64,000 nucleotides of DNA from Gemmatimonadota bacterium. Its GTDB lineage: Bacteria; Gemmatimonadota; Gemmatimonadetes; Longimicrobiales; Gaopeijiaceae. The notes under the pieces are model-generated. The model saw only the letters and a program-made list of their open reading frames with translations. It searched no databases and was not told the DNA's origin. The stretch is taken from assembly GCA_007121455.1 (NCBI GenBank), contig SKKN01000035.1:62001-126000 (forward strand). Direction: 5' to 3'. Made by a program: the position numbers and the translations under genes. Shown in pieces: positions 48,061 through 54,673 of this stretch (within the stretch, counting starts at the first letter, position 1; every line of letters begins with the position of its first letter).

Positions 48061-48252
48061 ATGGCCATCTACCGGACTCGCTATTACAGCGATGTAACCG
48101 TCGGCGTGGGTGGAAGGATCACGATTCCCCAGGAGATGCGAGACGACCTCGGCATCGAAGAGGGGGATGTGCTGACGGTTCGGGTAGAGGAAAACCCGAG
48201 CGGAACCCGGCAGATGGTCATCTGGCGGTCCGAGCAACAGCCGGGCGAGTAA
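48061..48252 (+). CDS. AbrB/MazE-like DNA-binding protein
   Basis: 63 residues with a single swapped-hairpin AbrB-type domain: TVGVGGRITIPQEMRDDLGIEEGDVLTVRV (about 14-43). Such proteins bind DNA as dimers and act as transition-state regulators or antitoxins. No toxin gene is next to it: the neighbours are the divergent NatA ATPase (158 bp) and the convergent luxC-like gene (36 bp). The ATG has AGAGGAGAGGGG directly upstream. It could regulate the NatAB genes. Confidence 0.82.
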   Translation: MAIYRTRYYSDVTVGVGGRITIPQEMRDDLGIEEGDVLTVRVEENPSGTRQMVIWRSEQQPGE

Positions 48253-48288: not shown

Positions 48289-49698
48289 CTATCCTTCCAG
48301 GTCGACCCAACGGATGAGGCTCCCCAGGGGCGCCATGCCGTCGTGGTGCCACCAGGCGGGAGGCCAGGGCATACCTGCGAGAGTCGTGATCCGCAGGGCC
48401 CCGATGTCCGCCAACTCCTTGGCGAACTGCTCCCGGCGCACGCCCTTCGCCTCGAGTGCTACGGTCTGGAGGGACGGGGTGTGGCACGAAAGGAGTCGGG
48501 GAAGCTCTCTCAGATCTCCGATCGGGTGCACTCGAGCCATCCGGCCGAGACAACTCGCCTCTCCGGAATTCTCCGGATCGAAGATCACCGTCCAGGAGAG
48601 CGCACCTCCTTCATGGACCTCCACGCCTCGCCCTGCAGCGGCCCGTAGCGCCGCAGCCCCCCGCGTCTGCTGGATCCTCGCCGCCTCGTCGAGGAGAAGA
48701 GGTGGCGGCGGAAGCGAGCGCGTCAGACGCTCGAGCTCGGCAGCCAGCCGCCGTGCCCAGCTCCGTGGCTCGACGCCCCCTCCCCGCTCCACGTAGAACG
48801 CCTGAGGCGAAACGCAGCCGCGCTGCTCGAAAAGCGCCACGGAGCGTGCTGCGGCCCGCGCAGATGCCTCTGCGGACGCTTCATCCAGCATCTCCCGCGC
48901 CACCACGCCGACACTCCATCGATGGGGATAGGCGATCAGCCGTGCGCCTTCCGAGAGCCTCTCCCGGATCTCCCGCAGGGTCACGTCGCTCCCGTAGGCG
49001 ACGACCTGGGTGACCGAGGCGAAGAGCACCCCCTCGGTCTCCACCATCTCTTCGTCGCCTCCTGGCCAGTACGCCACGGCGAGCGTACGTGCAAGGTGCT
49101 CGTCCTCCTCCTCGAGCCCCCGGTGAAAGAGGAGGGGGAGGAGGATGTCGCCTCTCCCGGGCTTCACCAGAGCGGCCGACTTGACGAGCAGGCTCCGCAG
49201 AAGGGACGTGACGGTGACTCCAGGGACGTTGCCGGAGCCGACGTGAAGGGTGACAGGGGGACTCCTCGCCAACGCGCTCCCGCTCCCGTCCGCTGAACGA
49301 AAGCGGTCCAGCACCTGCGGGTCCGCGAACTCCCGTCGGAGAAGAGCAGCGAGGCGTTCGGGGGTCCAATCCCGCGCCATCCCGTCGAGGACTTCGCGGG
49401 ACATCTCCGACGACAGCCCGGCCGCGTCCGGCAACAGCTCGAGCGCTTCACGTCGAAGCGGGTCCGCCGTGTCGAGAAATCGTCGCCCCACTCGTCCGAG
49501 GAGCCCGGGGAGGCTCTCGACGGGGCGGTGAAGAAGCTCCTCGTTGCGAGCGCGAGCGAGGCGTGCCAGAACCTCTCGGACACCTCGCCGACCGAGGACC
49601 GGGTAGTGGAGCGCCGGAAATCCTTCACGCTCCGGAAGGGAAACGACCCTCGTGCCTTCGGGGAGTCCCCCCGGAATCCGCCACGACTCGCGCGTCAC
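48289..49698 (-). CDS. Acyl-CoA reductase, LuxC-like
   Basis: 469 residues. LuxC fold of the aldehyde dehydrogenase superfamily: LHVGSGNVPGVTVTSLLRSLLVKSAALVKPG (cofactor region, about 151-181) and the catalytic Cys in FEQRGCVSPQ (about 295). LuxC reduces a LuxE-activated fatty acyl group to the aldehyde using NADPH. The GTG at 49698 was chosen because it falls one base after the luxE stop; an in-frame ATG at 49806 would overlap luxE by 107 bp. No luciferase (luxAB) or thioesterase (luxD) is nearby, so the aldehyde has another use. Confidence 0.85.
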   Translation of the reverse strand: MTRESWRIPGGLPEGTRVVSLPEREGFPALHYPVLGRRGVREVLARLARARNEELLHRPVESLPGLLGRVGRRFLDTADPLRREALELLPDAAGLSSEMSREVLDGMARDWTPERLAALLRREFADPQVLDRFRSADGSGSALARSPPVTLHVGSGNVPGVTVTSLLRSLLVKSAALVKPGRGDILLPLLFHRGLEEEDEHLARTLAVAYWPGGDEEMVETEGVLFASVTQVVAYGSDVTLREIRERLSEGARLIAYPHRWSVGVVAREMLDEASAEASARAAARSVALFEQRGCVSPQAFYVERGGGVEPRSWARRLAAELERLTRSLPPPPLLLDEAARIQQTRGAAALRAAAGRGVEVHEGGALSWTVIFDPENSGEASCLGRMARVHPIGDLRELPRLLSCHTPSLQTVALEAKGVRREQFAKELADIGALRITTLAGMPWPPAWWHHDGMAPLGSLIRWVDLEG

Positions 49699-49699
49699 G

Positions 49700-50812
49700 T
49701 TACCCGCCCCCCTCCCGGCCGCCGTCCCCGGCGAGAAGACCTTCCATCGCGAGAGAGCAGCCGCGAGGCTCGGCACCCGGACTCCTTCCGATGACACGGA
49801 AGCCATCGCGGTGCTCGACCCCTCGATCCTCGGTCAGCACATGACAGATGGAGCCGAGGTTCGCAAGATCGAAGTGGCAGAGGATCCCTTCGCTTCCATG
49901 GGCCACGGGTTCCAGGCTCACGGGGTCGAGCACTCTCGTCCGAACCCATGGAGGAGATCGATGCCGGCGGTCCTCCGCTCCATCGATGAGGACCGGCTCG
50001 TAGAACTGGGAGAGGAGCTCGGTCATCCCGTACTCGTTGACGATTCTGGACGAGGGTATGCCCAATGCCGACTCCAGCTCACCGTAGAGGGAATCGCGCG
50101 AGAGGGCTCGGGAACGTCCCTTGAATCCTCCGGTCTCCATGATCCTCGAACCACCGGGCAGACGATGTCGCACCCTCTCCACCGAGGCCCGCTCCAGCCA
50201 GTGCACGAAGGCGAACGCCGTGCCGATGACCAGGACCGGCGCCCCGTCGTCCTCCGCCCGGTCCAGAGCCGCCCGGAACGCACCGACCTCGACCCCCTCG
50301 ACGGGATCGGCGAAGAACCCGCTCCCCTCGGCCCCGTACGCCTGCACGGCTCGCCCCACCATGTAGCTGAGGGAGGAGTCGGGGAGCCGCTTCGGATCCG
50401 GAACAAGAGCGAGGATCCGGATCCGCTCCTCGTCCGGGAGGAGATGAGTTCGGAGGTTCGGGAGCGAGGAGGCGTCGTAGAGGGCCAGATCGAGCACATG
50501 GTGCTCTCCCCGGCGGGCGCTGCCGCGGGTGGTGCCGCTGGTCCGGAAGACCCGCTCTACCCGGTCCGGGTTTCCCGAGACGAGGCGAAGCTCCTTGAAC
50601 GCCCTCGTGGGGACGGGAGGCACCTCCTCCCATCCTCGTACGCCACCCGGCGCGGCTCCCCGGCTCTCGCAAAACCCCCGGTAGATGGCATTCGACTCGA
50701 ACTGGGACCGGAAGGCGCGAAGGGCGAGCGCATCGAATGCCGCATCAGGAAGCGGCGATTCCACCCCTGCGGCAAAGAGCTGCAGCAGTTCGTCCCGAAC
50801 CGTCGGGTCCAT
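49700..50812 (-). CDS. LuxE-like acyl-protein synthetase / acyl ligase
   Basis: 370 residues. An AMP-forming ligase fold with FRTSGTTRGSARRGEHHV (phosphate loop S92-G-T-T95), METGGFKGRSR (225-235) and NEYGMTELLSQFYE (259-272), the last close to the LuxE consensus. LuxE activates a fatty acid to acyl-AMP and loads it onto an enzyme Cys before LuxC reduction. It is directly followed by the luxC-like gene and preceded (11-bp gap) by a small helical protein gene in the same operon. The substrate chain length is unknown. Confidence 0.87.
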   Translation of the reverse strand: MDPTVRDELLQLFAAGVESPLPDAAFDALALRAFRSQFESNAIYRGFCESRGAAPGGVRGWEEVPPVPTRAFKELRLVSGNPDRVERVFRTSGTTRGSARRGEHHVLDLALYDASSLPNLRTHLLPDEERIRILALVPDPKRLPDSSLSYMVGRAVQAYGAEGSGFFADPVEGVEVGAFRAALDRAEDDGAPVLVIGTAFAFVHWLERASVERVRHRLPGGSRIMETGGFKGRSRALSRDSLYGELESALGIPSSRIVNEYGMTELLSQFYEPVLIDGAEDRRHRSPPWVRTRVLDPVSLEPVAHGSEGILCHFDLANLGSICHVLTEDRGVEHRDGFRVIGRSPGAEPRGCSLAMEGLLAGDGGREGGG

Positions 50813-50823
50813 GGTCTGGCCCC

Positions 50824-51096
50824 TCAGGGCCCCGATGAAGATCGCCGGACCCGGCCAGGCTCCAGCCCTCCTCGCTCGAGAACCTTCGCCTGAAGGCGAT
50901 GGCCTTCCTCCTCGGAAAACCCCAGGAGCTCACCGAGGGCCCGCTCGGCTTCCTCGTATGCGGCCGCGGGGAAGTCCTCGCCCTCGGCCGTCCGTATCGC
51001 CCCTTCGAGCGCTCGCAACTCACGGCGTCCCTTCTCGAGAGCCCTCTTCAGCCTTCCGAGAGCCTTTCGTGCCTCGGACTCCACACTGGTCACCAT
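50824..51096 (-). CDS. Small helical protein upstream of luxE-like gene
   Basis: 90 residues, no TM segment. Highly charged helix-forming sequence (EARKALGRLKRALEKGRRELRALEGAIRTAEG then AYEEAERALGELLGFSEEEGHRLQ) suggests a coiled coil or a four-helix bundle. I recognise no domain. The ATG at 51096 follows GGGAGAAGCACC; the frame is open upstream, but the sequence there is unlike a protein. It lies 11 bp before luxE on the same strand, so it is probably cotranslated with luxE-luxC. It may be a carrier, adaptor or regulator; no function is assigned. Confidence 0.6.
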   Translation of the reverse strand: MVTSVESEARKALGRLKRALEKGRRELRALEGAIRTAEGEDFPAAAYEEAERALGELLGFSEEEGHRLQAKVLERGGLEPGRVRRSSSGP

Positions 51097-51241: not shown

Positions 51242-52468
51242 TCAGAGGATGCCAAGGACCGTGAGGAGCGCCCTTCCTCCGAGCAGCACGGTCACCAGAA
51301 ACACGATCCCCCCCACCACGTTCCCTCCGGGGCCGTTCCGGTGCCGCCCCATCCAGCGGCCATCGTTCACGGCCAGGAGGAGGAAGAGCGCAATCGAGGG
51401 CAGAAGGATCCCGTTCGCGGCCTGCGCGAAGATGATCGCCTCCACGGGTTGAACTCCCACGACTGCGAAGAAGGTCCCTGCCAGCACCACACCCGCCCAT
51501 ACCGCCCGGAACCTCCATGACTTGAGGTCCGGCTCCCAGCCGAGCGCGCCCGCCGTCGCGTATGCGGCGGCGAGAGGAGCCGTGATCGACGACGTCATTC
51601 CGGCAGCGAAGAACCCGACAGCGAAGAAAATCCGTGCCCACTGCCCGAGGAGGGGTTCGAGCTGCTGCGCCATCTCCCCCGCTCCCTCCACCGCGACCCC
51701 GGTCTGGTGGATCGTACCGGCCGACGTCACGAGGATCGCCATGCTTACCGCCCCGCCCACCCCGATCGAAAGAACCAGGTCCTTACGGCAAGCCCTCAGG
51801 TCCTCCGCCCCCCGAAAACGCTCCCGAACCGTCGATGCATGGAGGAAGAGGTTGTAGGGCACCACCGTGGTGCCGATGAGCGCGACGGTGAACAGGACCG
51901 CCCCGTCCGGTAGGCTCGGGACGAAAAGTGCACGCAGAAGATCGCCCGGCGGCGGGGCCACCACGATGGCAGTGACGACGAACACGATGGCCATGAGGGC
52001 CACGAGAACCATCAGCGACCGTTCCAGCAGCCGGTAACTCCCGCTCCAGAGCAGCGCGATCGCAAGCGCCGCGATCAGCAGAGCCCAGAGGTTCGGGGGG
52101 CCCGAGGCCACGGCCTCGATCCCGAGCGCGGCGCCCAGGAGGTTACCCATCTCGAACGCAGCATTACCCACCGCGATCGCGCCGACGATCAGAAGGACGG
52201 CCACCGCCCGGAGGAGAGGCCGAGCGAATCGACGGCGGACCGCCTCGCCGAGACCGAGCCGGGTGACCACACCCAACCGCGCCGACATCTCCTGCAGGAC
52301 AATGGTGGCGAAGATCGAGAAGGCCAGCGCCCAGAGAAGGGTGAGGCCGAAGTTGGCCCCGGCGAGCGTGGCCGTCGTGACGGTCCCCGGACCGATGAAG
52401 GCGGCAGCCACCATCCAACCGGGTCCACCCCGGTAACGGTCGCGGACTCCTTCCTCCTCGAGGTCCAT
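51242..52468 (-). CDS. NRAMP/SLC11-superfamily transporter, divergent ligand motifs
   Basis: 408 residues, about 11 TM helices of the NRAMP/MntH fold (GWMVAAAFIGPGTVTTATLAGANFG start; GTTVVPYNLFLHASTVRERF in TM6). At the metal site, canonical TM1 DPGN is G26-P-G-T29 here and TM6 MPH is VPY, so the Asp, Asn, Met and His positions are all replaced. It belongs to a divergent GPGT subgroup that I recall is annotated broadly as Nramp-like, and manganese/iron transport cannot be assumed. The ATG at 52468 follows GGTGAGGAGGAGG. It is divergent from ypdA across 117 bp. Confidence 0.85.
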   Translation of the reverse strand: MDLEEEGVRDRYRGGPGWMVAAAFIGPGTVTTATLAGANFGLTLLWALAFSIFATIVLQEMSARLGVVTRLGLGEAVRRRFARPLLRAVAVLLIVGAIAVGNAAFEMGNLLGAALGIEAVASGPPNLWALLIAALAIALLWSGSYRLLERSLMVLVALMAIVFVVTAIVVAPPPGDLLRALFVPSLPDGAVLFTVALIGTTVVPYNLFLHASTVRERFRGAEDLRACRKDLVLSIGVGGAVSMAILVTSAGTIHQTGVAVEGAGEMAQQLEPLLGQWARIFFAVGFFAAGMTSSITAPLAAAYATAGALGWEPDLKSWRFRAVWAGVVLAGTFFAVVGVQPVEAIIFAQAANGILLPSIALFLLLAVNDGRWMGRHRNGPGGNVVGGIVFLVTVLLGGRALLTVLGIL

Positions 52469-52585
52469 CGCCTCCTCCTCACCGGCATGATCCGACGGAG
52501 CATCGGGGACCAGAGTACCAGCGCCCTTCGGCTCCGTCCAACCCCTCCCGGAACCGGCCCCACGGTGGGGGGTGAGCCACAACCC

Positions 52586-53572
52586 ATGGGCGACGAGACG
52601 TTCGATCTGGCGGTAGTGGGTGCGGGCCCGTGCGGAATCGCCGTGGGGGCGGCGGCGCGGGAGGCCGACCGGAGCGTTCTGCTCCTGGAACGGGGCTTCG
52701 TCACGAACGCCCTCATCCAGTATCCGCCGTACATGACGTTCTTCAGCACCGCCGAGAAGCTGGAGGTGGGTGGGGTTCCGTTCGTGGTGCCCCGGGACAA
52801 GCCGACGCGGCTCGACGCCCTCGTGTACTACCGGCGGGTGGTGGACTACTTCGGACTCCCGGTGCGCCAGCACACCGAGGTGACGGGGGTGAGCGGGAAA
52901 CCCGGGAGGTTTCGCGTGCGCCTCCGCACCCGGCAAGGCGAGGACGACGAGGTTCGGGCCCGAGCCGTCGTCGTCGCGACGGGCGGCTTCGACGAGCCGA
53001 ACCTTCTCGGAATTCCGGGCGAAGATCTGGCCAAGGTCCTCCACCACTACACGGAACCACATCCCTACTTCGACCAGGACGTGCTCGTGGTCGGGGGTGG
53101 GAACTCAGCGGTCGAGGCTGCGCTGGAGCTCTTCCGCGCCCGCGCTCGGGTGACGCTGGTGCACTTCGGCACCGAGCTCGACCGGGGAGTGAAGCCCTGG
53201 GTGCTTCCCGACATCCGAAACCGGATCGAGAAGGGCGAGATCCCGATGCGGTGGCGCCACCGGCTCGTAGAGGTCCGCCCCCGCTCGGTCATCCTCGAAG
53301 ACGAAGGCTCCGGACGTCGAGAGGAGCTCGCCAACGACTGGGTCTTCGCCATGACCGGCTGGCGGGCGAACCCCGCGCTCCTCCACTCGATTGGGGTGGA
53401 GATCGACCCGGAGACCGGCATTCCCGACCACGACCCCGATTCGATGGCGACGAACGTACCGGGCATCTATGTCGCAGGCGTGCTCGCCGCCGGGTACGAC
53501 GCGAACCGGATCTTCATCGAGAACGGAAGGGAGCATGGTGGACGGATCGTTCGCCACCTCACCCGTGAATGA
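52586..53572 (+). CDS. ypdA: YpdA-family FAD/NADPH oxidoreductase (putative bacillithiol disulfide reductase)
   Basis: 328 residues of the thioredoxin-reductase-like two-domain fold. FAD site FDLAVVGAGPCGIAVGAAAREA (about 6-27), NADPH site VLVVGGGNSAVEAALEL (about 168-184), C-terminal FAD contact VPGIYVAGVLAAGYDANRIFIENGR. It lacks the CxxC of thioredoxin reductase and keeps the QYPPYMTFFSTAEKLEVGG region typical of YpdA/Bdr, which recycles oxidised bacillithiol. The bacillithiol link is known from the family in Firmicutes; here it is inferred. The ATG at 52586 is where homology begins. Confidence 0.88.
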   Translation: MGDETFDLAVVGAGPCGIAVGAAAREADRSVLLLERGFVTNALIQYPPYMTFFSTAEKLEVGGVPFVVPRDKPTRLDALVYYRRVVDYFGLPVRQHTEVTGVSGKPGRFRVRLRTRQGEDDEVRARAVVVATGGFDEPNLLGIPGEDLAKVLHHYTEPHPYFDQDVLVVGGGNSAVEAALELFRARARVTLVHFGTELDRGVKPWVLPDIRNRIEKGEIPMRWRHRLVEVRPRSVILEDEGSGRREELANDWVFAMTGWRANPALLHSIGVEIDPETGIPDHDPDSMATNVPGIYVAGVLAAGYDANRIFIENGREHGGRIVRHLTRE

Positions 53573-53587
53573 CTCGCCTCGACCGCT

Positions 53588-54673
53588 TCAGGCTCCCGGA
53601 TCTCCCTCCGCCAACACCCACCCCCCATCCGTCACCTCTCGAACGTCGACCTCCGGTCCATCGGGGAATCCCAACCGAGCCCGTCCCGGAATCTCCAGCT
53701 CCCTTCTCACGTATCCGAGACCCACGGTCTGGCCGAACCGGGGGGAGCGAACCGCGCTCCTCACCTCTCCTGCCCCGCGGGAACGCCCGTCGATATAGAG
53801 CTCCGTGCCGGGCTCCGGAGGAGCGACGTCGCCCAGCAGCAGGCCCCGGAGATGCCGATTCACCTTCCCGCGGTCGCGGATCCGGATGATCACCTCCTGT
53901 CCGGTGTAGCAGCCCTTCCCGTGATCGATCGCCCGCTCTTCCAGCCCCGCCTCCAGGGGAATCGTGCTCTCGTCCAGCTCCTCCCCGAAAACGGGCCGCC
54001 CGGATTCGATTCGAAGCACCCTCTCGACTTCCTCTCCCAGCACGGGAAGCCCTGCGCCCTCGAGACGGCCGCGAAGTTCCACGATTGCGCTCCGTCGGCC
54101 CAGAACGTCGAACGCGGGTACCGCGCCGGCCCACGCCCGAAGGACCCGGATGGAGTCCGTGTGCGGCCGGTCCCGGTCGGGATAGGCCACGAAAGCGTCC
54201 TCCTCCATCTGCTCGAGCGTCGCGCTGTCGGACGCCAGGCCCTCCCCCACGAGCGTTTCCGCGGCAGCGGGCCCCACCACCGTGAGCATCCCGGTCTCCC
54301 CGGCAAGGTCATCGACGGTGGCGAAGCGCGGAGGCAGGTACTTTCCGAAGTACGCCATCGTACCCTCGAGCCCGGCAGCCGGGAGGTCGAGGAGAAAGGC
54401 CTCCACCTCCCCTTCGAGGCGGATGAGCCTCAGCTCCGTGACCATCTTTCCCTTCGGTGTCAGGATTGCGGCGTAGCGCGCTCGACCGCGCACCCGGGAA
54501 CCTTCGTCTTCAGGCTCCGGCGCATCGGGGAGGCGGTTCGTGACGATCCCGGCCAACATCTGAGCCGGAGCCCGCCCGTGGAGCAGAAGCCGGCCGCGGT
54601 CGTTCCGGTCCACGAGCGCGGCCCGCTCGACCGCCTCCCGATATCCCTGAGGCACTGCACTCTTCTCACTCAC
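53588..54673 (-). CDS. ygfZ: YgfZ/GcvT-like folate-binding protein
   Basis: 361 residues. The GcvT-like fold with the YgfZ signature K-G-C-Y-T-G-Q (HGKGCYTGQEVIIRIRDRGKVNRHLRG, about 245-270) identifies the tetrahydrofolate-dependent iron-sulfur cluster maintenance protein rather than the glycine-cleavage T protein. It would support clusters such as those of ActB. GTG start; the stop of the SirB1-family gene overlaps it (GTGA). It converges on ypdA with a 15-bp gap. Confidence 0.88.
   Translation of the reverse strand: MSEKSAVPQGYREAVERAALVDRNDRGRLLLHGRAPAQMLAGIVTNRLPDAPEPEDEGSRVRGRARYAAILTPKGKMVTELRLIRLEGEVEAFLLDLPAAGLEGTMAYFGKYLPPRFATVDDLAGETGMLTVVGPAAAETLVGEGLASDSATLEQMEEDAFVAYPDRDRPHTDSIRVLRAWAGAVPAFDVLGRRSAIVELRGRLEGAGLPVLGEEVERVLRIESGRPVFGEELDESTIPLEAGLEERAIDHGKGCYTGQEVIIRIRDRGKVNRHLRGLLLGDVAPPEPGTELYIDGRSRGAGEVRSAVRSPRFGQTVGLGYVRRELEIPGRARLGFPDGPEVDVREVTDGGWVLAEGDPGA

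Follow-up and report, generated by a model that had tools for sequence, protein, structure and literature searches.

Proteins of the LuxE family form first an acyl-adenylate and from it an acyl-cysteine; those of the LuxC family accept the acyl group and reduce it to an aldehyde. The luminous LuxC-LuxE fatty acid reductase, for which the structure of the complex has been solved (PDB 7xc6), draws on the same two families and the same acyl cysteines as the locus described here, and in both cases the genes sit in one cluster. In contrast to luminous lux clusters, the present locus has no LuxAB beside the pair and places LuxE before LuxC.

Precedents exist for LuxE-LuxC pairs that lack luciferase. 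As described in the accessible portions of the respective reports, flagellin glycosylation islands of Aeromonas (PMC7874193) and of Enterobacteriaceae (PMC4875605) contain luxC/luxE, Riemerella has the LuxE-like AS87_03730 (PMC4772473), and the mel2 locus of M. marinum includes the LuxC-like MelK (PMC1793995). In these four cases the LuxC and/or LuxE families are used without bioluminescence, as here, but in surface-sugar, virulence or stress-defence settings, and those portions of the reports mention no counterpart of the small gene that precedes LuxE in the present locus.

On plasmids of Priestia, Azospirillum, Pantoea and Lactiplantibacillus, LuxE immediately precedes LuxC, as here, with no luciferase in the regions shown, and the encoded proteins share 34–40% (LuxE) and 28–34% (LuxC) identity with those of the present locus. 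Unlike the latter, the plasmid cassettes have an adjacent SDR reductase and lack the small gene at the locus; in all except that of Pantoea a transporter gene directly adjoins, often for an NMT1-type importer or a purine/pyrimidine permease. The neighbours of these cassettes (L176, L177, L178 and L179; Lactiplantibacillus, Priestia, Azospirillum and Pantoea) suggest a common small-molecule acid substrate, and the open-access literature searched offers nothing decisive on the substrate of the LuxE-LuxC-SDR cassette. LuxE-LuxC adjacency is also found in class-level outgroups, where the small gene is absent at the locus.

The window, that is, the whole stretch of 64,000 nucleotides that was analysed, comes from contig 41 in the 3.5-Mb draft genome of a Gemmatimonadota bacterium, which has one copy each of LuxE and LuxC. 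The three-gene order reported in the earlier note, with LuxE and LuxC one base apart, is confirmed, all of the open reading frames lying at the minus-strand positions given there (Table 1). The stop of the small gene is separated from the LuxE start by 11 nt, the LuxE stop from the LuxC start by the single base, and LuxC most likely starts at the GTG at 49698. The AbrB-like gene downstream of LuxC lies on the opposite strand at a position that synteny shows to be conserved among relatives, and the YpdA-like gene is divergent to the small gene in most of them.

Table 1. Genes of the locus and its flanks, with coordinates in the window.
Feature	Coordinates	Strand	Basis and remarks
AbrB/MazE-like DNA-binding protein	48061-48252	+	AbrB-cluster similarity (cluster representative matches PF04014); synteny
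LuxC-like acyl reductase (ALDH superfamily), 469 aa from GTG	48289-49698	-	PF05893
LuxE-like acyl-protein synthetase (ANL superfamily), 370 aa	49700-50812	-	ATG at 50812; PF04443
Small ORF, 90 aa	50824-51096	-	ATG at 51096 behind GGGAGAAGCACC; stop at 50824-50826
Nramp metal transporter	51242-52462	-	PF01566; synteny
YpdA-like flavoprotein (putative bacillithiol disulfide reductase)	52487-53572	+	TIGR04018 above cut-off; synteny
YgfZ-like folate-binding protein	53588-54673	-	TIGR03317 above cut-off; synteny

Both enzymes are genuine members of the families to which they had been assigned. LuxE scores 74.8 bits against PF04443 (E = 8e-21; curated Pfam cut-off 24.9) and LuxC 226.1 bits against PF05893 (E = 9e-67; curated cut-off 21), and sequence searches match them to the two components of the solved LuxC-LuxE complex, LuxE to 7xc6_E (E = 2e-18) with the acyl Cys aligned and LuxC to 7xc6_A (E = 2e-15) with the catalytic Cys aligned. 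The acyl-accepting Cys358 of LuxE, located within RGCSLAM near the C-terminus, is kept in all 61 aligned homologues, and the adenylation motifs SGTT and EYGMTE are present, with SGTT and YGMTE conserved among homologues. The catalytic Cys296 of LuxC, within QRGCVSP, is kept in 65 of 65. Residue 158 of LuxC (GSGNVPG), at an ALDH-like position, is Asn in 31 of the 65 homologues and Ser or Thr in another 31, with the catalytic Cys invariant. LuxC-family matches occur in 89 of 98 relatives, a count that includes weak matches to other aldehyde-dehydrogenase-like proteins.

Judged by homology, LuxE and LuxC would constitute a two-enzyme carboxylic acid reductase. LuxE would adenylate a carboxylic acid with ATP and then load the acyl group onto Cys358, from where it would pass to Cys296 of LuxC for NAD(P)H-dependent reduction to an aldehyde. 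Aldehyde formation, as proposed earlier, is probable on the strength of family membership, and the product would enter a pathway other than light. The pair is a chromosomal, putatively acid-reducing pair without luciferase, a type that is already known.

No member of the luciferase family was found among the genes identified around the pair, and the four matches to the luciferase-like monooxygenase family PF00296 in the genome are all on other contigs, which bears out the claim that no light genes adjoin the pair. Light production is rejected, luciferase being absent beside LuxE-LuxC. The enzymes are not orthologues of the luminous ones, because identity to the Photorhabdus-type LuxE/LuxC of an F-plasmid reporter (L180) is 21–22% over the alignments, the luminous L180-type sequences are separated from those of the window by a very long branch in the LuxE+LuxC tree, and scores against the LuxC and LuxE NCBIfam equivalogs fall far below cut-off (73.5 of 750 and 66.8 of 550 bits). 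The luxC/luxE genes of this reporter plasmid are taken by us to be of Photorhabdus type, the record itself naming products only. A search of the genome for LuxD with PF02273 and one for a wax ester route through WS/DGAT each gave no match, and the control genomes gave none either.

The small open reading frame is a real gene, since it is conserved in relatives and has a dN/dS of about 0.12 (median among close pairs), and 818 of its 1159 substitutions fall at third codon positions. Conservation and dN/dS also reject the possibility of a spurious reading frame. The gene is present in 60 of the 98 relatives, mostly at ~43–72% identity, and a search of 395 genomes of the phylum found it in 92, nearly all of which belong to the family of the window (f1) or to one sister family (f2); none was found in family f3 among the 395 genomes searched. 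The named relatives are nearly all Gemmatimonadota MAGs, some of them titled Longimicrobiales or BD2-11 clade. Four contigs titled Gammaproteobacteria (L141, L159, L161 and L163) carry the same block as the Gemmatimonadota relatives, and their titles are probably wrong.

The small protein has the signature EARKALNRLRRA-EK--REL...AEG-DFP...RLQEKIL-AGGLEPGRVRR, and AlphaFold2, run on 48 sequences, predicts an antiparallel two-helix hairpin (residues 2–41 and 44–75, mean pLDDT 86.7), followed by the conserved C-terminal tail GGLEPGRVRR, which is modelled with low confidence. Searches of Pfam and NCBIfam returned nothing above cut-off, a sequence search of the PDB gave weak coiled-coil matches only, and Foldseek found no PDB match to the fold at E ≤ 0.001, with generic hairpins, such as Kif21A and the arm of seryl-tRNA synthetase, at E > 0.2. 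The genuine small helical protein seen in the earlier note thus holds up on conservation, dN/dS and the predicted hairpin, and it represents a new, unnamed and lineage-specific hairpin family under purifying selection.

The gene order around 59 small-gene loci describes a vertically kept block consisting of SirB1-like, YgfZ, YpdA (divergent), sometimes Nramp, the small gene, LuxE, LuxC, AbrB (opposite strand) and an ABC exporter. Nramp is present ahead of the small gene at 12 of the 59 loci. The gene directly after the small gene is an amidohydrolase in 24 loci, LuxE in 23, a gamma-glutamylcyclotransferase-like (GGACT) gene in 8, all from family f2, an opposite-strand DUF5916 gene in 2 and the contig end in 2, and in several cases of each same-strand kind the small stop overlaps the start of the gene that follows.

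The preferred reading, to which we assign a probability of about two in three, is that LuxEC is a carboxylic acid reductase with no part in light production and that the small protein is an independently conserved neighbour in a variable cluster. The hairpin would be the product of the first gene of a co-directional cluster of varying content, whose genes are presumably co-transcribed; it is probably a neighbour of the two enzymes and not a subunit, and presumably has no function dedicated to LuxEC.

The small gene and LuxEC are separable in both directions. One relative (G056, 97% complete) has the order YpdA-LuxE-LuxC-AbrB, with ~60 nt between YpdA and LuxE and the small gene absent from the genome, and a second (G033) likewise has LuxE-LuxC intact and no small gene. 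Conversely, G010 (81% complete) has the order small-amidohydrolase-AbrB with LuxEC absent at the locus and LuxC not found in the genome, and G008 (96% complete) has the small gene with LuxC not found. In the sister family f2, the small gene follows YgfZ or Nramp and precedes GGACT, and LuxE-LuxC is on a different contig. Most of the genomes are metagenome assemblies, in which gaps are possible, and one absence by itself counts for little; separability is argued from several independent cases and from the flanks, which are intact in G056 and G010. In family f3, ~5–7 kb separate LuxE from LuxC in three of six loci examined (L195, L196 and L200), and the small gene is in none of the six.

The adjacency of the small gene and LuxE in the window is most likely a reflection of gene loss, since the D-aminoacylase-like amidohydrolase that separates the two in many relatives is missing here. 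In the LuxE+LuxC tree (61 rows, built by a quick method with SH-aLRT support only), the loci with the amidohydrolase in between are scattered over several early lineages, and this state is at least four changes apart from direct adjacency. The amidohydrolase would have stood between the small gene and LuxE early on and would later have been lost in the clade of the window; loss seems the better reading than repeated gain, although repeated insertion may be the alternative. Paralogues of the amidohydrolase elsewhere in the genome of the window share 38–44% identity with it.

The strongest competitor to the preferred reading is that the hairpin is a scaffold or regulatory subunit of a LuxE-LuxC complex in the family of the window, replaced or dispensable elsewhere. 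In most genomes of this family the small gene is a direct or close neighbour of LuxEC; 48 of 58 have both the small gene and LuxC, 3 the small gene only and 7 a LuxC match only (one of the seven being a weak partial match in a 60%-complete genome), and this co-occurrence can be read as a functional tie that a few lineages have lost. In many genomes LuxE comes immediately after the small gene, the two being separated by a short gap or overlapping by 4 nt; the overlap, seen in L058, L089 and L090, fits co-translation. LuxE follows on the same strand within 9 kb in 43 of the 59 loci, and the predicted coiled-coil-like hairpin would suit protein contacts. However, the orthologous locus keeps each without the other (G056 and G033 versus G010 and G008), the two are at separate loci in f2, and in six slices (L080, L083, L126, L130, L134 and L140) the gene immediately after the small one is a DUF5916 gene on the opposite strand. 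Moreover, neither the LuxE-LuxC proteins of other phyla nor the solved complex 7xc6 needs such a protein. A subunit is thus unlikely, and the dedicated LuxE/LuxC component put forward in the earlier note is not sustained: loss of the small gene in relatives, which that note had set in advance against its own proposal, is found in G056 and G033 with LuxE-LuxC intact. In genomes that have both, the small protein may nevertheless have a scaffold or regulatory role.

It is quite unlikely that the small protein instead functions with the D-aminoacylase-like amidohydrolase or with another neighbour such as YgfZ, in a process unrelated to acyl reduction. The amidohydrolase is the next gene in the LuxC-less genomes G008 and G010 as well, and its start is overlapped by the small gene in L063, L087, L088 and L103; in 34 of 59 loci YgfZ precedes the small gene on its strand, directly so (17–200 nt) in three loci of the sister family f2. 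Against such a partnership, some genomes, including that of the window, have no amidohydrolase at the locus, the next gene in f2 encodes the GGACT protein, and export is probable for the amidohydrolase, which has a Tat-like signal, whereas the small protein has no signal.

In a handful of loci (L073, L075, L077, L124 and L135), genes for the amidohydrolase, a DAO-family flavoenzyme, LuxE and LuxC follow one another on the same strand. This arrangement would suit an N-acyl amino acid route, in which an exported D-aminoacylase frees the acid for LuxE-LuxC to reduce to an aldehyde, the amino acid being dealt with by a DAO-family amine oxidase, but the DAO gene is uncommon, the amidohydrolase is missing at this position from the window and from about 20 other loci, and its substrate class is putative; we hold the route to be rather improbable. 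It is a long shot that the hairpin is a lineage-specific adaptor joining the exported D-aminoacylase, the amine oxidase and LuxE-LuxC; if true, this would be an undescribed route from N-acyl amino acid to aldehyde in this branch of the Gemmatimonadota.

The acyl carrier for LuxE/LuxC that the earlier note had suggested is extremely unlikely. Acyl carrier proteins are likewise small, helical and near acyl-handling enzymes, and the size and position of the small protein are all that speak for this role; carriers differ in having a phosphopantetheine serine and a four-helix fold, neither of which is present here, the predicted fold being a two-helix hairpin. Conservation of Ser reaches at most 67% in any column, and only 8 of 48 members contain a Cys; lacking a conserved Ser or Cys, the protein has no residue to bear a phosphopantetheine arm or a thioester, so the carrier is ruled out by sequence and predicted fold.

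The comparison of gene order shows that the tempting reading of the small protein as a lux component does not survive, and it defines a well-conserved small protein family without a name or known partner. In the Gemmatimonadota, LuxE-LuxC is an old, mostly vertically kept and putatively acid-reducing pair without accompanying light genes, which supports the view of LuxE-LuxC as enzymes of general metabolism that were co-opted for luminescence.
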